Source: Anaerobacillus sp. CMMVII (lineage in GTDB: Bacteria > Bacillota > Bacilli > Bacillales > Anaerobacillaceae). Taken from it: a stretch of 64,000 bases of DNA. The notes beneath the pieces are model-generated. The model was given only the letters and a program-made list of their open reading frames with translations. It ran no database searches and was not told the DNA's origin. Of this stretch, positions 9,007-19,483 are shown piece by piece (positions within the stretch are counted from its first letter, which is position 1; each line of letters begins with the position of its first letter). The position numbers and the translations under genes were made by a program. The stretch covers positions 496,001-560,000 of the forward strand of contig NZ_JACEHK010000002.1 of the NCBI RefSeq assembly GCF_025377685.1. The letters are read 5' to 3'.

Positions 9007-10114
9007 ATGACAATTGATCATATTCTTGAGCGTGCTGTTAAAGGTGAGCGTCTGACAATTGAAGATGCTATTAATTTATATGAAAGTAATGAGGTAGAGA
9101 AAATTGGTGCTGCTGCAAACGAGGTTATGAAAAGTGGCATCCTGAGCCTATTACTACATTTGTAATTGGACGAAATATTAACTACACAAATTTTTGTGAT
9201 ACGTATTGTCGTTTTTGTGCCTTTTATCGACCACCTGGTCATGAAGAGGGTTATGTGTTAGAAGATGATCTTATTTTAGATAAAATCCAAGAAACAGTAG
9301 ATGTAAATGGAACGGAAATTTTAATGCAAGGTGGAACACATCCAGATCTTCCACTAAGCTATTATACAAACCTTTTAAGAAAAATTAAGGAACGTTTTCC
9401 TAACATCACAATGCATTCATTTTCTCCGGCTGAAGTTTGGAAAATGGTTGAAGTTTCAGGACTAAACTTAAAAGAGGTACTGTTACAGCTTAAAGAAGCA
9501 GGGCTTGATTCAATTCCAGGTGGTGGTGCGGAGATCTTAGATGACCGTACAAGACAAAAAATTAGTAAGAAAAAAGGTTCATGGGAAAAATGGATTGAGT
9601 GTATGAAGATGGTTAAAACTGTTGGAATGCATGGTACAGCAACAATGGTTATCGGTTTTGGTGAATCAATTCAGGAACGAGCTTTACATCTTCAGCGGAT
9701 CCGTGATGCTCAAGACGAATCAAACTGCTTCTTAGCGTTATTCCTTGGACATTCCAACCAGACAATACAAATCTTAAAGCCGAAAAAGTGACTCCTGATG
9801 AGTATTTGAAGAATTTGGCTATCTCAAGACTATTCTTAGACAATATCCAAAATTTCCAATCATCATGGGTAACCATGGGACCTGAAATCGGGAAGAAATC
9901 TCTTTCTTATGGTTGTAATGATTTTGGTAGTACGATGATGGAAGAAAACGTAGTATCTGCTGCAGGTGCTACTCATAAAGTTAATTCTAATTTAATTTTA
10001 AGACTTATTCGTGAAGCGGGTAAAATTCCAGCACAGCGTGATACAAAGTATAATACCCTTCATGTATTTAAAGAAGAGGAAACAACTGATAAAGATTTCG
10101 TTATGCAAAACTAA
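9007..10114 (+). CDS. mqnC: Cyclic dehypoxanthinyl futalosine synthase MqnC (two frameshifts here)
   Basis: A radical SAM enzyme of the futalosine route to menaquinone, cyclising dehypoxanthine futalosine. The CDTYCRFC motif supplies the CX3CX2C cluster ligands, followed by FYRPPGH, ILMQGGTHPDL and SIPGGGAEIL. Start ATG 9007 lies after GATGGGGG. Two single-base losses break it: in the AAAA run at 9130-9133 (restoring MKKWHPEPITTF) and near 9748 in TTATTCCTTGG (restoring LALFPWTFQPDN). Everything else is conserved to the stop at 10112-10114, so errors are likelier than decay. It stands between dnaI and ytxC, which are neighbours of thrS in B. subtilis, a species that uses the men pathway. Confidence 0.9.
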
Positions 10115-11339: not shown

Positions 11340-11585
11340 AAAAAAGTCTTGATGAGGACATGGGTTTTATTTTACGGTTTTAAGAGAGGGAAGTGCTGCT
11401 GGGAGCTTCCTAACACGGAAATAATACTTACCACCTCTGAACTTCAGTAGGGAAATTTAAAGTATCTACTGACGGCTACAAACCGTTATTTTCTCATAAG
11501 TCACATTTACCTATTCGTAAATGTGAGAATGAGGGTGGAACCACGAGCATAACACTCGTCCCTTTTTAGGGATGAGTGTTTTTTA
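11340..11585 (+). promoter_or_regulatory. T-box riboswitch of thrS
   Basis: A tRNA-sensing leader. The T-box core GAGGGTGGAACCACGA begins at 11531. It is followed by the terminator AACACTCGTCCCT / AGGGATGAGTGTT with T-run (11551-11585). Stem I occupies roughly 11345-11460, with candidate Thr specifier ACC codons at 11430-11435. Uncharged tRNA-Thr would pair with the TGG of the T-box and prevent termination. Confidence 0.92.
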
Positions 11586-11626
11586 TGTTATTACCATTTT
11601 TTAGAATGAAAAAGGAGTGTTTAGAA

Positions 11627-13548
11627 ATGAACCAAGTAAAGGTTACATTCCCAGATGGAGCAGTACGGGAATATGCTAATGGAGTAACGACAGAGGATAT
11701 TGCAGCCTCTATTAGTCCAGGCTTAAAGAAAAAAGCTGTTGCTGGTAAACTAAATGGCAAAGTGGTTGATCTATTATTGCCTATCACAGAAGATTCAGCA
11801 GTAGAAATCGTAACACTTGAATCGAAAGAAGGCCTAGAAGTTTACCGTCATAGTACGGCTCATCTAATGGCTCAAGCGTTAAAGCGCCTTATCCAGAGAT
11901 CAAGCTAGGTATTGGTCCGGTGATTGAAAATGGGTTCTATTACGATGTTGATTTGGAAAATCCATTGAAGCCAGAAGATCTTCCAGCAATTGAAAAAGAA
12001 ATGAAAAAGATTATTAATGAAAATATTAAAATTGAACGTAAAGTTGTGACTCGTGAAGAGGCGTTACGTATTTATGAAGAAATTGGAGACCATTTAAAGC
12101 TTGAGTTAATTCGTGAGCTTCCTGAAGGTGAAGAAATTTCGATCTATGAGCAAGGTGAATTCTTTGACTTATGCCGTGGGCCACATCTTCCATCTACTGG
12201 AAAGATCAAGGCGTTAAAATTAATGAGCATTGCAGGAGCATACTGGCGTGGAAATAGTGACAACCAAATGTTACAGCGTATTTATGGTACTGCCTTTCCT
12301 AAGCAAAGTGATCTTGATGAGTATTTACATTTTATTGAAGAAGCACAAAAACGTGACCACCGTAAATTGGGTAAAGAACTTCAATTATTCATGTTCTCTG
12401 AGGAATCACCTGGTATGCCTTTCTATTTACCAAAGGGGCAAGTTGTTCGTACAGAACTTGAAAACTTTTCAAGAGAATTACAACGTGGGGCAGGATATGA
12501 CGAGGTTCGTACACCATTCATGATGAATCAACGTTTGTGGGAGCAATCTGGTCATTGGGAACACTACCATGAAAACATGTATTTCTCAGAAGTTGATAAT
12601 ACAAAATTTGCAATGAAACCAATGAATTGCCCAGGCCATATGTTAATCTTTAAAAATGAACTTCATTCATACCGTGATCTTCCAATTCGTATGGCTGAGT
12701 TTGGCCAAGTTCATCGCCATGAATTAAGTGGTGCGTTAAATGGTATGATCCGTGTTCGTACATTTTGCCAAGATGATGCTCACATTTTCGTAACACCAAA
12801 ACAAATTGAATCAGAAATAAAAGAAGTGTTTAAATTAGTTGATCAAATCTATAAGACATTTGGTTTTGAATACTCGGTGGAACTATCCACTCGCCCAGAA
12901 AATTCAATGGGCGATGATAAATTATGGGAGCAAGCTGAAGATGCGCTTCGCAATGTATTAGAAGATCTACAATTACCTTATCAATTAAATGAAGGTGATG
13001 GCGCATTCTACGGTCCAAAGATTGACTTCCACATTAAAGATGCTCTTAAACGTAGTCATCAATGTGCGACAATACAGGGTTGATTTCCAAATGCCTGAGA
13101 AGTTTGATTTAACGTATGTGGATGAAAACAACAACAAAGTTCACCCAGTTGTCATTCACAGAGCAATTTACGGTTCGATTGACCGTTTCTTTGGTATTTA
13201 GTTGAGCATTTTGCTGGTGCATTCCCTACATGGTTAGCCCCAGTACAAGTAGAGGTAATCCCAGTTAATGAAGTTCATGTTGATTATGCAGAACAAGTAA
13301 AGGCAAAGCTATTAGAAGCTGGCGTACGAGTTCATATCGATAATCGTAACGAAAAACTTGGTTATAAGATCCGCGAAGCTCAAATGCAAAAAACACCTTA
13401 TATTCTAGTGTTAGGTGACAAAGAGATTGAAGAAAGTGCTGTAAACGTACGTAAATATGGTGAGCAAAACTCAGAAGCAGTTGGCCTTGAAACGTTTATC
13501 TTTAACATTAAAGAGGAAATTGCTACAAGAAAAAATAATTTAGTATAG
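11627..13548 (+). CDS. thrS: Threonyl-tRNA synthetase (three frameshifts here)
   Basis: A class II synthetase. The domains in order are TGS ([16 protein letters not shown]), the editing domain with HSTAHL, the catalytic core ([37 protein letters not shown]) and the anticodon-binding domain ([19 protein letters not shown]). Start ATG 11627 follows AAGGAG. Three single-base indels interrupt it: a lost T near 11894 (KRLYPEIKLG), an extra G near 13078 (TIQVDFQM) and a lost T near 13197 ([12 protein letters not shown]). The family expectation is one continuous ~640-residue, essential protein, so these are probably sequence errors. Confidence 0.93.
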
Positions 13549-13710: not shown

Positions 13711-14643
13711 ATGCAATATATAAAATTAATTTTTATTATTGTAATTTTTGGTTTTCTTATAAGCATTTCAATAGCATGCTCAGTTAAAGCCCCAGAAACA
13801 GTTATTGCGTTAACAGAAGCCAGTTTAGTAGATTCTGAAGATGAATCACTAAATCATGATGAAGAAACTCTAAAGTTTGCGATTGTCTCAATTTTATCGA
13901 TTCGTGAAACCCACCGTACATTTCATAAATTTGCCCAATATTTAGAGGAAGAATTAGGACGACCGGTCGAAATAATCCAGAAACAAACGTATACGGAAGT
14001 AAAGGAACTTTTTGAACGTGATGAAATTGATGCTGGAATAGTATGTGCCTACCTTTCAGTAGTAGGAAGGCGAGAAGGCATTATTAAAAAGATCGCGATG
14101 CCGGTTATAGATGGGGAAAAACAGTTTACATCTTATATTATTACTAAAAATAATAGCAGTATTAATTCAATGGAGGATCTTTACGGAAAGAACTTTGCAT
14201 ATTCGGATTCTTTATCATACTCAGGTTATTTAGTTGCAAAATATAATATCGTTCAAGGAGGATTTGACTTTAATAGTTACTTCTCAAATGCTTATTACAC
14301 ATATAGTCACGATAATACAATTTTAGCTGTAGCAAATGGATTAGTAGATGCAGGTGCAACCCATAGTGTAGTGTTTGATAAATTAAAAAAAGAAAACAAT
14401 CCTATTATTGCAGAAATAAAAATCATTGCAGAAGGAGAATTAGTTGGACATTCTCCAGTTGTGATTAATCCAAATATAGACCCAGATCTTGAAATTAAGC
14501 TACGGGAAGTTATTTTATCGATGCATAAAGATGAGAAAGGGAGAAAAGCCCTTGAAAAGTTAGGTTATGATTATTTTGATGTACCAGATAAAGATCTATT
14601 TAAACCGATTATTAAAATGTTAAAAGACTTAGGAGATCTGTAG
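13711..14643 (+). CDS. PhnD-like periplasmic-type substrate-binding lipoprotein
   Basis: A 310-residue solute-binding protein of the PhnD/AioX-like class. It has an N-terminal hydrophobic segment ending SIAC (Cys23), a probable though imperfect lipobox, so it is likely tethered outside the membrane. The fold marker is FAIVSILSIRETHRTFHKFAQYLEEELGRPV, which parallels the P-x-x-V/Y-x-P-L-A-x-Y-L-E start of PhnD binding proteins (first 20 residues given elsewhere as 56-75). EDLYGKNFAYSDSLSYSGY and a DAGATHSVVFD segment follow. There is no ABC permease nearby; a kinase starts two bases after the stop, so a sensory role is inferred. The ligand is unknown. Confidence 0.82.
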   Translation: MQYIKLIFIIVIFGFLISISIACSVKAPETVIALTEASLVDSEDESLNHDEETLKFAIVSILSIRETHRTFHKFAQYLEEELGRPVEIIQKQTYTEVKELFERDEIDAGIVCAYLSVVGRREGIIKKIAMPVIDGEKQFTSYIITKNNSSINSMEDLYGKNFAYSDSLSYSGYLVAKYNIVQGGFDFNSYFSNAYYTYSHDNTILAVANGLVDAGATHSVVFDKLKKENNPIIAEIKIIAEGELVGHSPVVINPNIDPDLEIKLREVILSMHKDEKGRKALEKLGYDYFDVPDKDLFKPIIKMLKDLGDL

Positions 14644-14644
14644 G

Positions 14645-16552
14645 ATGAAACGGCTCTATCTTTTATTTATTTCTGTATTGAGTAATAGTAGCGTGAAAAC
14701 GAAGGTTCTAGGAATGACAATCGGGTTAGTTATACTAATGGCCATAACGAGTACCATTATCCTCAGGGAAATTCTAGTCGTAAAACTTAGTGAAGATTTA
14801 GATCGTCGAGCTGTTTCAATCGCTAGTGATTTAAGTTCTCGTAGTATTGATTATACAATACTAAAAGATATTTATAGTCTGCATAATTTACTACAAGACA
14901 CAACTCAACACAACCCTGATATTGAATATATTTTTATTACTGACCAAGACTTAAACGTTTTGATTCATACCTTTGGACCAGATTTTAAGATATCGGAGGA
15001 TCTCTTAAATATAAATTTGCTTGAAGTAGGTAGTCATTTTGAAACTAAGCAGTTAGTGACTTTCTCTTCAGAAAATGGGGTTATTCATGATGTCATAGCT
15101 CCTATATTTTCTGGAGAGGCCGGATTTGTTAGAGTTGGTTTAAATGAGGAACAAATCTATAAAACAATCGATGCTATTACCTTTATATTAATTTTATCGA
15201 CGATTTTTGTTGGGGCTATTGGTTTTGTGATTGCGTTCTTTCTAACGAAATTTATGTATCGTGATTTAATGCATTTAATGGAGAAAAGTAAACAAGTTGC
15301 TGCAGGAGATTTAGACTGTAATGTTGATATTAATTCAAATGACGAGATTGGTAAGTTAGGAAAAGAATTTAATAGGATGATAAAGAAGTTAAAACAAAAA
15401 GAGCAAGAAAAAAATCAATATTTAAATGTACTACAGATGAGGAATAGTGAGCTCTCTTTGTTGCATCAATTAGCGGTTAGTTCAGTTGATATCAATAATT
15501 TTAATAAGCATTTAAAAAATGCTGCCGTCCTACTTATAAATGATTTGAATTTAAATAGCTGTTTTATTGAGTTAGACCTTGCTGGCGAAAAAATTGCTAC
15601 GTTTCAGGGGAAAAATAGTTGTCAAAAAGGAAAAGACAAAGCTTGTGAAAATTGTGAACTCCATAAAGATGATCAAGTTCTGCATGAATCACAATTTTAT
15701 CTTCCGATAGGGACATCCATGAAAATTGGTCAAATTAACGTTTGCTTTATCAATAAACCAGATGAAACAACGAAAAAATTCCTCTACTCTTTTGCTAGTC
15801 AACTATCTGTTGTAGCTGAAAATGCAAGGTTATGGAAAGAAATAAAATATAAAGAAGAGTTAAGGTTGAAGCTTCTTGAACGGGTGATAACAGTACAAGA
15901 AGAAGAAAGAAAAAGGATTTCAAGAGAACTTCACGATGAAACAAGCCAATCGATAACCTCCATCATCGTTGGCCTGACCTTACTTGAGGAACATTCAATT
16001 TCGGATGCGATGAAACAAAAGATTCAAGATTTAAAAGTAGTATCGCAAAAAACATTGGAGGAGATTCATTATATATCTTGGTCACTTAGGCCAAGTGTAT
16101 TAGATGATCTTGGCTTATTACCAGCAATTAAAAAGTATGTCATTGAGTATATGAATAAATTTAATCTAGACGTTGATATTCAAGTGATTGGGTTTAATCA
16201 ACTCCGCGTTTCTTCGATTATTGAGGTGACGATATATCGTGTTATACAAGAAGCTTTAACAAATGCAGCTAGGCATGCCGAAGCTGAAAATATAAGTATC
16301 ATTCTAAAACATTCCAATGGTATTGTTTCGGTTATTATTGAAGATGATGGTAAAGGATTTGATGCTAATCAAATGTTAAATGCAAATCTTGTAAAGGATC
16401 ATTTAGGTTTAAAAGGAATGCAGGAACGAATTGAATCTTTAGGTGGGAAACTATTGATTGAATCCAACGTAGGTATTGGAACGACTGTTTATGTGAAAGA
16501 CATTTTGATTGGAGATGAACCTTGTGACAAAACCGAAAATTATGCTAGCTGA
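14645..16552 (+). CDS. Sensor histidine kinase, NarX/DesK (HisKA_3) type
   Basis: A 635-residue membrane kinase. Transmembrane helices lie at about 21-41 and 177-201, flanking an ~135-residue extracytoplasmic sensor domain; then HAMP (about 203-256), a GAF-like domain (about 265-400), a HisKA_3 dimerisation domain with phosphorylatable His430 in ISRELHDE, and a HATPase domain (VIQEALTNAARHAEAE, DDGKGFD, GLKGMQERIESLGG). The GAF-like part has Cys326, Cys334 and Cys337 (C-x7-C-x2-C) plus Cys306, a possible metal or redox site (inference). Start ATG 14645 abuts the binding-protein gene, and the 3' end overlaps the regulator. The binding protein probably presents its ligand to the extracytoplasmic domain. 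Confidence 0.92.
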   Translation: MKRLYLLFISVLSNSSVKTKVLGMTIGLVILMAITSTIILREILVVKLSEDLDRRAVSIASDLSSRSIDYTILKDIYSLHNLLQDTTQHNPDIEYIFITDQDLNVLIHTFGPDFKISEDLLNINLLEVGSHFETKQLVTFSSENGVIHDVIAPIFSGEAGFVRVGLNEEQIYKTIDAITFILILSTIFVGAIGFVIAFFLTKFMYRDLMHLMEKSKQVAAGDLDCNVDINSNDEIGKLGKEFNRMIKKLKQKEQEKNQYLNVLQMRNSELSLLHQLAVSSVDINNFNKHLKNAAVLLINDLNLNSCFIELDLAGEKIATFQGKNSCQKGKDKACENCELHKDDQVLHESQFYLPIGTSMKIGQINVCFINKPDETTKKFLYSFASQLSVVAENARLWKEIKYKEELRLKLLERVITVQEEERKRISRELHDETSQSITSIIVGLTLLEEHSISDAMKQKIQDLKVVSQKTLEEIHYISWSLRPSVLDDLGLLPAIKKYVIEYMNKFNLDVDIQVIGFNQLRVSSIIEVTIYRVIQEALTNAARHAEAENISIILKHSNGIVSVIIEDDGKGFDANQMLNANLVKDHLGLKGMQERIESLGGKLLIESNVGIGTTVYVKDILIGDEPCDKTENYAS

Positions 16553-17177
16553 TGATCACGGAGTGTTATTGTCCGGGATTCAACTATTATTATCAAAAGT
16601 AGATGAGTGGGAAATTATAGGAACAGTCTCACGGGGGGAAGAAGCCGTTGAGAAGGCCGCTATATGGAAACCCGACTTAATATTAATGGATATATCTATG
16701 CCTGGTATTGGTGGGATTGAAGCGACCAAGCAAATTAAAGAGATATTTCCACAAATGAAAATCTTAATGTTAACGATGTTTTCTGAGGAAGACTATCTAA
16801 AAAAGGCGTTAATGGCTGGTGCTTCTGGTTACGTTTTAAAGAAGGCTGTAGATACAGAGCTTATTTCAGCGGTCAATACTGTCCTTCAAGGTGAAACATA
16901 TATCTATCCAACATTATCAAGCTTTCTTTTACGTGGTTTTGTTGAAGAACCAAAGGCTAGTCAACAAAAGGTGTGTCCATTAAGTGTAAGGGAAAAAGAA
17001 GTGCTTAAATACGTTGCTTTAGGCTTTACGTATCAAGAAATTGCGGAACAATTATTTGTAAGTGTAAAAACCGTCGAAACACATAAAGCGAGAATTTCTG
17101 AAAAATTAGGCATGAAGAAGAGATCCGAGTTAGTACGCTATGCAGTTGCTCAAGGACTAATATCAATTAGTGATTAA
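16524..17177 (+). CDS. Response regulator, NarL/LuxR family
   Basis: 217 residues. The receiver domain has acidic pair Asp10-Asp11 and phospho-acceptor Asp56 in LILMDISMPG; a LuxR-type helix-turn-helix lies near 150-210 (LSVREKEVLKYVALGFTYQEIA, VKTVETHKARI). Start GTG 16524 is chosen because GGAG lies nine bases before it and the protein then begins MTKPKIMLADDH; it overlaps the kinase gene by 29 bases, indicating translational coupling. The likely targets are the downstream cytochrome genes or its own operon. Confidence 0.94.
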   Translation: MTKPKIMLADDHGVLLSGIQLLLSKVDEWEIIGTVSRGEEAVEKAAIWKPDLILMDISMPGIGGIEATKQIKEIFPQMKILMLTMFSEEDYLKKALMAGASGYVLKKAVDTELISAVNTVLQGETYIYPTLSSFLLRGFVEEPKASQQKVCPLSVREKEVLKYVALGFTYQEIAEQLFVSVKTVETHKARISEKLGMKKRSELVRYAVAQGLISISD

Positions 17178-17211
17178 AGCTAGGGAGATTTTATTTCCCT
17201 AGCTTTTTTTC
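17175..17211 (+). terminator. Terminator after the two-component genes
   Basis: AAAGCTAGGGA pairs with TTCCCTAGCTTT and runs into TTTTT. It separates the sensory operon from the cytochrome genes, so the latter must have their own promoter in 17212-17503. Confidence 0.9.
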
Positions 17212-17503
17212 TAATCTTTTAGGTTATTAGATTTGGATCTAAGGAAGTTAGCGATATGTGCCAATAAATATCATTTCATTGTTTTACATATTATTTAAAC
17301 TCGTTTGTCAGGGTTTTCCCGGATAGATTAGGGGGAATACGCAATTTTAATTACCTGAAAATAAGGGTTTTTACAGAAGATAACCATGAATTTAACTGAT
17401 AAAAAATATGTGATTTTGTGTGAAAATGTAGTTAAGCAAGAAATGCTCATTAAACATTAAAGGTATTTCAAGTTTACTCAAAAATAAAAAAGGAGGAAAA
17501 GAA
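17212..17503 (+). promoter_or_regulatory. Upstream region of the hexaheme cytochrome gene
   Basis: A 292-base non-coding stretch. A dyad TTCCC...GGGAA lies at about 17313-17337 (TTCCCGG, then AGGGGGAA), the only clear symmetric element seen. No unambiguous -35/-10 pair or FNR site could be picked; the region is where binding by the adjacent NarL-type regulator would be expected (inference). Confidence 0.35.
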
Positions 17504-18978
17504 ATGAAAAAAGTCGATTGCTAATCTTAGCAATCCTCATAGTTGCTATTGCGACAGTTGTTTCAGGATGTACCACTAAAAAAACAACAACAACACCTAT
17601 AGCTGTAGCAGCCGAGGAATTATCCTATTATGACAAATTTGTTGGACCGGAAAAATGTGCAGACTGTCATGACGACCATATGGAAAATTGGGAAACATCA
17701 TGGCATACCAAAAAAACTATTGAAGGACCCGCACTTGGGGGAGGCGATCTCATCTGGGATTGGGTTCCTGCTAAATGGGATCAACTAGATTCTTATTTGA
17801 TTTTGGATCAAAAAGATAAAGACACTCTTTATGTATCTACTAAAAAGTATGCTTTAGATGAAGTGGCTTTCTCAGTAGGAAGCGTCCGGAAGCAACGCTA
17901 CTTGGTTTACTATGATGGGTCACCAATGGAAGCATACTTGGCGTACACTGAAAATGGTGGTATTAGTTTCGAGGTAGATAAATCTCAAACTGTTCAATTT
18001 GAAGGTAACAAAGAGCGTGCAGGTTATAACTTTTTATTTTTAGAATTACACAATGAGGATGACATTAGAGGTTACGGTGAGTTTCGTTCATGGCAAGAAC
18101 GTTGTATTGGTTGTCATACAACTGGATTTAACCCAGAGGCATGGAACGAAGCCAAAGAAGAATTTATTAACGGCGAACGTGAACATTTAAGAGATACTTT
18201 TGTCACGACTGTATCAATTAGCTGTGAATCATGTCATGGTCCAGGTAAAGACCATGCAGACTTCCCATTACGAAAAGGGAATATCATTAATCCAGCAAAA
18301 CTGGCTATGGATGATCCGACACGTAAAATGGTTTGTGAGCAATGTCATACTCGAACACAAACAAACATTCTTTACGGGAATGGCGCAAATGACAACCGTG
18401 GCTTTAAGCTAGGTGAACATGTATATACTGAAATTATGCAATACACTCGTCCTGCTTGGGGCACAGGAAACCGACAAGTTTCCATTGATGGGAAAGGACG
18501 TCGTGATCACCAGCAAGACATGGATATCCGATTACAGGATCATATTAAAGGCGGATCTACTATTCACGGACAAATGGCTTGTTTTGACTGTCATGACTCT
18601 CATAGCGTAGGAAATAATCCTGATAATCCACGCACATATGGTGAAACTCCAGTATCTAACTGTGTTACATGTCATGGACTTGATGCAGAAGAAAACTTGA
18701 AGGTTTTAAATGGAACTCTAGGTTGGGAGAAATTTGGTTTTGGAAATTGGGGTAACGAAGGTGGACGTAGTGGGAATAAACAGCATATTTTCAATTTTGA
18801 CGATGAAGGGAGAACTTTCGGACTTACTGCAGATCAATATGTTTGGGCTCTGCTGAAAGATGGAAACCCTGCAGAACAAGAAGGTTGGGAATCAATTTGG
18901 CCGTGGGAAATTGAACTTTATGAAGCACAAGGACAAAAAATCTATATTGGCGAGAAGCCTTGGGAAGAGGGTGAATAG
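17504..18978 (+). CDS. Hexaheme c-type cytochrome lipoprotein (frameshifted at codon 3-4 here)
   Basis: About 491 residues when repaired. Six CXXCH haem sites are seen: CADCH (from base 17656), CIGCH, CESCH, CEQCH, CFDCH, CVTCH. The signal sequence ends VVSGC (Cys23), a good lipobox. SD AAAGGAGG precedes ATG 17504, but ATGAAAAAAGTCG then needs one more A to give MKKSRLLILAIL; otherwise translation would have to begin at TTG 17518 with a truncated signal. The early motif CADCH...NWETSWHTK resembles the cytochrome c554 group of multihaem reductases. No CXXCK catalytic haem, so it is not NrfA. Substrate unknown. The tetrahaem protein starts three bases on. Confidence 0.88.
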
Positions 18979-18980
18979 AT

Positions 18981-19433
18981 ATGACATATACTAAAAAGAA
19001 GCTATGGTTGATCATTTTAGCCGCTGTTTTTGCGGGGATCGTTATATCTGTTATCACTGTCGGAACAACAAGTGCTACAACGAAAAGTAGCTTTTGTTTA
19101 AATTGTCATGATGCACCTGAATTTTCATCGAGCATGGCTCAAACGCCTCATGGAAATCTTGAATGCTTAAGCTGTCATGGTGAAGGGTTCGTTAAAGACA
19201 AAATCAATGGTGTTGGCCATCTGATGAGCACAATTACGGGTAAAATGGATCCGAACGCATACCATGAATATGGGGCAGAAGTTGATAGTGAAAAATGTTT
19301 ATCTTGTCACAATATTGAAAATACAAAACGTGATAGCGGTTCTGTAACAATGCATTTAAAGGTTGTCGAAAAAGATATGAGTTGTACACGTTGCCACGAT
19401 ACACTGTTCTTCCATGGACATGGTGTAGAATAA
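18981..19433 (+). CDS. NapC/NrfH-type tetraheme cytochrome c
   Basis: 150 residues with one N-terminal membrane anchor (about residues 8-30) and four CXXCH sites: CLNCH (FCLNCHDAPEF), CLSCH, CLSCH, CTRCH. The layout of anchor, first haem in FCxxCH and then HGNLECLSCH is that of NapC/NirT/NrfH quinol dehydrogenases, which pass electrons from menaquinol to a reductase outside the membrane. Starting three bases after the hexaheme gene, it is the obvious electron donor for it (inference from context). Confidence 0.9.
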   Translation: MTYTKKKLWLIILAAVFAGIVISVITVGTTSATTKSSFCLNCHDAPEFSSSMAQTPHGNLECLSCHGEGFVKDKINGVGHLMSTITGKMDPNAYHEYGAEVDSEKCLSCHNIENTKRDSGSVTMHLKVVEKDMSCTRCHDTLFFHGHGVE

Positions 19434-19448
19434 TACAACGTAAAAAGC

Positions 19449-19483
19449 AAAGGTTGGCCAATTTAGTTGGTCAACCTTTTGTT
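19449..19483. terminator. Bidirectional terminator between the tetraheme gene and the minus-strand gene
   Basis: AAAGGTTGGCC pairs with GGTCAACCTTTT around AATTTAGTT; A- and T-runs flank both sides, fitting the convergent genes. Confidence 0.85.

Follow-up and report, generated by a model that had tools for sequence, protein, structure and literature searches.

A three-component sensor with an altered arsenic-type pocket beside a six-haem cytochrome in Anaerobacillus: a candidate respiratory module for a soluble oxyanion

The window analyzed here, 64,000 nucleotides of Anaerobacillus sp. CMMVII (contig NZ_JACEHK010000002.1, positions 496,001 to 560,000; genome of 4.87 Mb in 21 contigs), contains the genes for a three-component sensor next to those for a six-haem cytochrome c, termed HexC, and a NapC/NrfH-type four-haem protein (Table 1). 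The genes are organized in two units. The first encodes a solute-binding lipoprotein (X), a histidine kinase (S), and a NarL-type response regulator (R), and ends at a terminator-like stem; the second, hexC-nrfH, has its own upstream region and its own terminator. An earlier note, made from the letters alone, had placed all of these elements correctly, and the Pfam domains of the five proteins are as described there. Its “one overlapping operon” holds as far as the operon is concerned, but only the kinase and regulator genes overlap, as the lipoprotein and kinase genes are separated by 1 bp. No ABC transporter genes adjoin the gene for the PF12974 lipoprotein, which forms one operon with those for the kinase and the regulator. 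A molybdoenzyme of arsenic metabolism is not found beside this sensor either, its neighbors being the cytochromes, thrS, and a GGDEF-EAL protein.

Table 1. Features of the sensor-cytochrome locus (window positions, unless another locus is named)
Feature	Position	Strand	Basis
PhnD/ArrX-like solute-binding lipoprotein (sensor component X)	13711..14643	+	PF12974 191.8 bits, PDB relatives, pocket alignment
Sensor histidine kinase (component S): sCache_3_2, HAMP, HisKA_3, HATPase_c	14645..16552	+	Pfam
NarL/GerE-type response regulator (component R): Response_reg, GerE	16509..17177	+	Pfam; open reading frame from TTG 16509
Intrinsic-terminator-like stem between regulator and cytochrome	17176..17206	+	14 pairs, T tail
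Palindrome TCAGGGTTTTCCCGGA, predicted regulator site	17308..17323	+	Match to published arrA motif; similar palindrome in 5/5 sensor-linked HexC loci
Half-site ATTAGGG, 3 bp after palindrome	17327..17333	+	TARGG half-site in all five loci
Promoter-like block CTGATA ... TGTGAAAAT (possible -35 and extended -10)	17396..17427	+	Conservation; 20-21 bp between hexamers
HexC, six-haem lipoprotein cytochrome c, predicted terminal reductase	17518..18978	+	Six CXXCH, Pfam, profile matches, 17-row alignment
NapC/NrfH-type four-haem membrane-anchored protein, predicted menaquinol dehydrogenase	18981..19433	+	PF03264; four CXXCH
Intrinsic-terminator-like stem closing the cytochrome unit	19449..19479	+	Sequence
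Multi-helix-sensor histidine kinases of other loci	L053 2508-3986; L030 12161-13606; L020 4164-5582; L028 1096-2541; L046 3363-4754; L056 7750-9000

When the PDB was searched, the closest solved relatives of the lipoprotein were ArrX (6x6b, 151 bits) and AioX (100), followed by PtxB (76) and PhnD (60), which bears out the proposed kinship with AioX/ArrX sensing; the score against the PhnD model TIGR03431 (135 bits) was under the cut-off (261). The pocket of AioX consists of Tyr88, Cys106, Tyr131, Ser161, Ser163, His192, and Asp210, the last of which bonds phosphate (PMC5908839). The window lipoprotein has Y94, C112, F139, S169, S171, H200, and H218 at the respective positions. The arsenic-sensor pocket is thus kept at five of seven positions, with Tyr131 replaced by Phe and Asp210 by His.

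Of 397 genomes sampled from the order, 10 had relatives of the kinase (E ≤1e-70); a sample of 398 genomes from the phylum gave two, which are among those 10; as the best three candidates per genome were scored (four in the case of the HexC profile), further copies could be missed. The resulting 17 three-component sets adjoin an ArrA-like molybdoenzyme (10 sets), HexC (five), or a cytochrome fused to an NrfH-type domain (two), and the pocket follows this division: YCYS(S/T)HD in 10/10 ArrA-linked, YCFSSHH in 5/5 HexC-linked, and YCYSSHY in 2/2 fused-cytochrome-linked sets. ArrA was scored with NCBIfam in three of the 10 Arr loci (689, 1059, and 1109 bits; all below the curated 1600) and was called from length, start, and CQGC motif in the lists of open reading frames in the remaining seven. 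In phylogenies of the kinase and of the lipoprotein, each with 17 rows, the ArrA-linked sets are split off by a fully supported branch, and the HexC-linked sets lie on one side of a moderately supported one (79/93 and 75/73, respectively); support for the HexC-linked regulators is 89/89 (16 rows, the regulator of genome G005 being cut by contig ends). Judged from these trees and pocket strings, the HexC-linked sensors form a clade of paralogs whose pocket has shifted. The enzymes served by the XSR sensors in PMC5908839 are arsenic molybdoenzymes; those served by the present clade, whose pocket has changed, are multihaem cytochromes.

Two of the other sets deserve mention in their own right. 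The second three-component set of the window's genome (L048 938-12101; C2:10937-22100) adjoins the ArrA-like molybdoenzyme that scored 689 bits, which may have another substrate. The sister sensor with Tyr at position 210 (L046 1301-11297 and L056 1647-9000; kinase 57-58% identical) has as neighbors a multi-helix kinase, the fused NrfH-cytochrome, and a protein of ApbE type, plus an FMN-binding lipoprotein in L046; the region looks like a flavin-based extracellular electron-transfer cluster.

Luecke and Quiocho reportedly found that phosphate- and sulfate-binding proteins discriminate between their ligands by an acidic group that accepts the HPO4 proton. As Asp210 is replaced by His and the hydroxyl of Tyr131 is lost, a ligand that carries no proton at high pH can therefore be argued for, and it is probably not arsenate or phosphate. 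The likelihood that it would be an unprotonated oxyanion of sulfur or selenium is somewhat short of even. The former suggestion that the bound solute is the respiratory acceptor, or signals it, is thereby refined to a solute that is probably not arsenate. A sensor still reading an arsenic oxyanion, with HexC as an accessory cytochrome of arsenic metabolism, would fit ArrX being the closest solved relative and the retention of Cys106 and four other pocket residues, and four of the five genomes with a HexC-linked set also hold an ArrA-linked one. However, these four genomes thus already have a sensor with the arsenic pocket, both Asp210 and Tyr131 are altered in 5/5 HexC-linked sensors, and no ars or arr gene was recognized by eye among the open reading frames adjoining the HexC loci of the genus. 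Because of the pocket change and the separate ArrA-linked set, arsenate is argued against, and this explanation is considered unlikely.

The cytochrome could be placed by profile. Compared with whole PDB chains, the HexC profile matched OcwA (6i5b, 1.1e-13), NrfA (2j7a, 9.7e-7), and MccA (4rkm, 1.7e-6), although single-stretch matches were weaker (best 7.7e-5, for 6i5b). By this match over the haem core, HexC belongs with the NrfA/MccA/OcwA superfamily, and of the two roles previously offered for it, reductase or relay, the balance tips slightly toward a terminal reductase. Pfam models above cut-off were Mtrc-MtrF_II-IV (41 vs 30) and Cytochrome_C554 (34 vs 20.8), and PF02335 did not match at E 0.001. 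HexC contains six CXXCH motifs, and no CXXCK occurs in the alignment (17 rows). Haems 1 and 2 are separated by 144 residues; modeled alone, this insert was predicted to be all-beta (mean pLDDT, the predicted local distance difference test, 75.7), though no PDB fold matched. A beta-sheet domain is common to MccA and OcwA and absent from other NrfA family proteins (PMC6703420).

In OcwA, haems 2 and 5 are open, and a His-His pair (281/282) is located above haem 2 (PMC6703420). The alignment of HexC-A, the variant encoded in the window, has conserved histidines outside CXXCH at positions 63, 246, 331, 350, and 362 (17/17) and 423 (16/17, the other row being cut off). OcwA has a single HH pair (chain residues 252/253 by our own count), and His331 aligns with its first member; given an offset of 29, we infer this pair to be 281/282. 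If His331 is assigned to the pocket, five distal histidines would be left for five haems, and one haem would be open; at the second haem of HexC, one side is predicted to be free of a protein ligand, and His331 to lie in the pocket. A copper site of the MccA type is unlikely because no Cys outside CXXCH is conserved.

The kinship with the NrfA superfamily also raises the notion that nitrite, hydroxylamine, or nitric oxide is the substrate of HexC. Slow reduction of nitrite and hydroxylamine has been described for OcwA (PMC6703420), and in locus L017 a PF02335-type multihaem protein is encoded ahead of HexC. Yet, the HexC alignment lacks CXXCK, and the window's genome has three PF02335 NrfA-type proteins above cut-off, so that nitrite is already covered there; such hits occur in 7/7 genomes of the genus, including two without HexC. 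Reduction of any of these three compounds by HexC is considered improbable.

For the regulator, a putative FixJ-like site, tcaggtttttccctga, is printed upstream of arrA (PMC5908839). The palindrome TCAGGGTTTTCCCGGA between terminator and hexC has two mismatches to this motif and is the only match with ≤2 mismatches in the window; among 1000 shuffles (first-order Markov resamples) of the 310-bp region, one was as good. The upstream regions of the five sensor-linked HexC genes have 2, 4, 4, 3, and 3 mismatches (single-region P of 0.001, 0.021, 0.035, 0.002, and 0.004), and equally close shuffled sets were not obtained (0/1000). Matches ahead of the two fused cytochromes are poorer (5 and 4 mismatches; P of 0.139 and 0.039). 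The eight of 10 Arr-locus upstream regions that were tested have five mismatches each, none being closer; that of G004 and the second Arr locus of G385 were left out. This test is independent of the consensus that we derived, but the match had first been noticed by eye; tests based on the degenerate consensus itself are partly circular because it was drawn from the same five HexC regions.

In all five loci, a TARGG half-site starts 3-5 bp plus two letters 3′ of the palindrome, and a conserved promoter-like block (CTGATA...TGxGAAAAT) follows the palindrome at 72 bp in 3/3 sensor-linked HexC-A loci and at 52 bp in 2/2 loci of a second variant, HexC-B. The difference of 20 bp corresponds to about two helical turns. 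Because a similar palindrome occurs in all five loci, and because of its helical spacing to the promoter-like block, it is very probable that the regulator acts on hexC, which supports the link between sensor and cytochrome proposed previously. Sites are also found upstream of the fused cytochromes, and G003 and G005 have another one (two mismatches to the consensus) ahead of the sensor operon. As to whether the regulator serves unrelated operons, the window's genome has three sites with ≤1 mismatch to the consensus, one of them before HexC; the point of this count is rarity, not excess.

Perfect Fnr/CRP-type palindromes (TGTGAN6TCACA) precede HexC-B and fused NrfH-cytochromes elsewhere (L044 8843, L054 522, L046 7612, and L056 5230); upstream of the window's HexC, none with ≤1 mismatch is present.

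The sensor-HexC set sits between thrS and infC in five of seven genomes of the genus (G000, that of the window, to G006), the copy of G005 being split over contigs. HexC-clade sensor and HexC are either both present (5/7) or both missing (2/7; G002 and G004), with G003 being 80% and G005 62% complete. Recurrence in five of seven genomes means that the arrangement is not due to chance. Accidental neighborhood without any functional tie might be suspected from the terminator between the two units and from the occurrence of HexC elsewhere without the sensor, but given the joint presence and absence within the genus, and a similar site with helical spacing before two different cytochromes, it is very improbable. 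Among the 397 genomes sampled from the order, the HexC profile matched five, each belonging to this genus, which fits the earlier remark that the set is absent from the B. subtilis gene order, although the B. subtilis locus itself was not inspected.

What stands beside the sensor differs among the five genomes. In G000 and G006, it is HexC-A with the NrfH-type protein; in G001, HexC-A with an NrfC-like iron-sulfur protein and an NrfD-like protein; in G003, HexC-B. In G005, sensor and HexC-B are distributed over contigs, and fragments of the regulator gene lie at both ends; a second cytochrome of this genome, HexC-A, adjoins a different, multi-helix kinase. HexC-B is ∼24% identical to HexC-A. 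The HexC-A proteins of the genus form one fully supported clade (four of 18 tree rows); therefore, the quinol partner was swapped beside a resident cytochrome. NrfA and MccA likewise have alternative quinol partners. That the NapC/NrfH-type protein of the window matches PF03264 (NapC/NirT, 46.2 bits; cut-off 24.1) and has four CXXCH supports the proposed quinol-to-cytochrome module, although the score against the NrfH model TIGR03153 (44.6 bits) is under its cut-off (134.2); with the N-terminal region of the fused cytochrome at the sister sensor, the protein shares 51% identity. With its sensor fixed and both cytochrome and quinol partner exchanged, the locus is a clean natural case of modular respiratory evolution.

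The genome scan yielded 16 relatives of HexC. Two are from Anaerobacillus (the nearest named relatives); the other 14, 47-55% identical in the best segment, come from Bacillota (Heliorestis), Thermodesulfobacteriota, Pseudomonadota, and one record labeled Myxococcota. The full kinase (E 1e-40) was found in 0/14 of these outside genomes, one matching the kinase core only. HexC thus occurs regularly without the sensor, which the earlier note had named as a refutation, and in G005 a HexC-A lies next to a different kinase; the pairing is therefore a recruitment inside one genus rather than an obligatory unit. Several of the 14 loci end early at contig ends. In Heliorestis (L030), HexC is accompanied by an iron-sulfur protein and an NrfD-like protein, in L017 by an iron-sulfur protein and a DsrP-type protein; in the Geobacter and Rubrivivax loci, no redox partner was recognized beside it. 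With the cytochrome ∼50% conserved from Anaerobacillus to the Geobacter and Rubrivivax records, the sensor provides a direct way to approach the substrate of this orphan cytochrome.

In both Bacillota and Thermodesulfobacteriota, HexC or fused NrfH-cytochromes are repeatedly accompanied by membrane histidine kinases that share a multi-helix sensor domain (motifs like LYGLxFFxMG and HGxxEW; Table 1), a family that possibly senses redox state or quinones. In a Desulfuromonadales metagenome-assembled genome, an open frame with 12 CXXCH (L027 1-3261) matches HexC twice and is, by its sequence, a tandem fusion of two HexC domains.

The following course of events is proposed. A small soluble oxyanion outside the membrane would be bound by the ArrX-like lipoprotein, which, by analogy with the AioX and ArrX systems, would act on the sCache domain of the kinase and so lead to phosphorylation of the NarL-type regulator. 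On the palindrome and its half-site, the regulator would then activate the separate hexC-nrfH unit, a step that is well supported by the sequence of this region. Electrons from menaquinol may pass, going by the protein families, via the NrfH-type protein to HexC, a lipoprotein at the outer face of the membrane, and the alignment with OcwA points to the second haem, with His331 in its pocket, as the place where the acceptor would be reduced. This acceptor would probably be the sensed ion or a close relative. On balance, we slightly favor a substrate-induced respiratory module for a soluble oxyanion other than arsenate, perhaps one of sulfur or selenium; such oxyanions are ranked first and extracellular transfer second. 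In the soda-lake organism Dethiobacter alkaliphilus, cytochromes resembling octahaem tetrathionate and sulfite reductases, and OcwA-like ones, probably serve sulfur compounds and iron (PMC10376724). For selenite reduction in Anaerobacillus, the candidates named in PMC11944866 are general ones (hig, frdA, trxA, and bsh).

Several findings weigh against a respiratory module of this kind. The reversed control of the consensus has more sites than the consensus in the window's genome (six vs three, ≤1 mismatch), and across the genus the pattern exceeded the control in three of seven genomes (13 vs 2, 15 vs 5, and 5 vs 2) but not in the other four (3 vs 6, the window's own, 9 vs 9, 6 vs 12, and 4 vs 6). 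The three pocket patterns (5, 2, and 10 sets) fall into about three clades, so that each represents roughly one evolutionary event. In G006, the kinase gene is broken by an insertion sequence-like element (L043 11096-13631; two open reading frames resembling, by eye, istA and istB of IS21), while the cytochrome genes, hexC included, are intact, and outside the genus HexC operates without this sensor. HexC-B, although under the same sensor pocket, lacks His350, so either ligation differs or the histidine count fails; the AlphaFold model of whole HexC was poor (mean pLDDT 50.2), and no geometry backs the open haem. Finally, in L020 (Desulfuromonadales), HexC directly precedes a DmsE-type decahaem protein and an MtrB/PioB porin, which fits extracellular electron transfer.

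The latter locus is also the main argument for the rival view that HexC is a cytochrome of extracellular electron transfer (to Fe(III), humics, or shuttles), and that the soluble ligand merely signals such conditions. The best PDB relative, OcwA, is a cell-surface terminal reductase, and G003 and G005 have the sister sensor near fused NrfH-cytochrome and ApbE (G003 also near the FMN-binding lipoprotein). Still, a sensor for a soluble ion would be an odd switch for a solid acceptor, and a conduit was recognized in one of the 14 loci outside the genus, several of which are cut by contig ends; extracellular transfer is accordingly given a minor, but by no means negligible, chance. Returning to the soluble oxyanion, a wider reading is put forward tentatively: HexC might found an uncharacterized class of hexahaem respiratory oxyanion reductases with NrfH- or NrfCD-type partners in Bacillota, Thermodesulfobacteriota, and Pseudomonadota, and the replacement of Asp210 by His and of Tyr131 by Phe in the Anaerobacillus sensors would be a residue code by which an ArrX-type pocket for protonated arsenate is retuned to an oxyanion of sulfur or selenium that carries no proton.

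The arrangement is reminiscent of several established systems. As in ArrXSR, AioXSR, and ArxXSR (PMC5908839), the genes for a PF12974 lipoprotein, a kinase, and a regulator form a group next to that of a respiratory enzyme, the pocket retains Cys106 and four further residues, and the operator resembles the printed arrA motif. Unlike in those systems, two of seven pocket residues are changed and a multihaem cytochrome is served instead of a molybdoenzyme; moreover, the regulator is of the NarL type, whereas AioR and ArxR are of the AtoC type. HexC shares with OcwA of Thermincola the long insert between haems 1 and 2, the distal His aligned at haem 2, and a Gram-positive cell surface, but OcwA has nine haems and a C-terminal helix bundle. 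MccA has eight haems and copper-binding cysteines; the N-terminal haem region of this octahaem sulfite reductase (MccA/SirA) matches HexC, which differs by its six haems and by having no conserved Cys beyond CXXCH for copper. With the nitrite reductase NrfHA, HexC has the NapC/NrfH-type partner and the superfamily in common, but neither CXXCK nor the PF02335 match, and the NrfH model scores far under its curated cut-off. The reductase served by the thiosulfate and tetrathionate sensors ThsSR and TtrSR is a molybdoenzyme. Both are two-component systems, unlike the sensor described here, but they too are located beside the reductase they serve, a precedent for naming a ligand from its neighborhood (PMC5408782).

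Some gene boundaries need adjustment. The start of the regulator is probably GTG 16524, as judged from the sequence and from comparison with G006. The HexC frame is open from TTG 17518, whereas ATG 17504, behind AGGAGG, is out of frame; the true start probably lies near this AGGAGG (17491-17496). Frame breaks are also apparent in the essential thrS and in a radical-SAM-like gene (9255-10114, 11576-13548, and, for the hexC start, 17504-17520), and homopolymer errors in the assembly are probably responsible for all of them. The upstream neighbor of the locus, named by eye, is this thrS, spread over several frames; downstream follow a 155-residue protein on the opposite strand that has no Pfam match, the GGDEF-EAL protein, and infC (named by eye).

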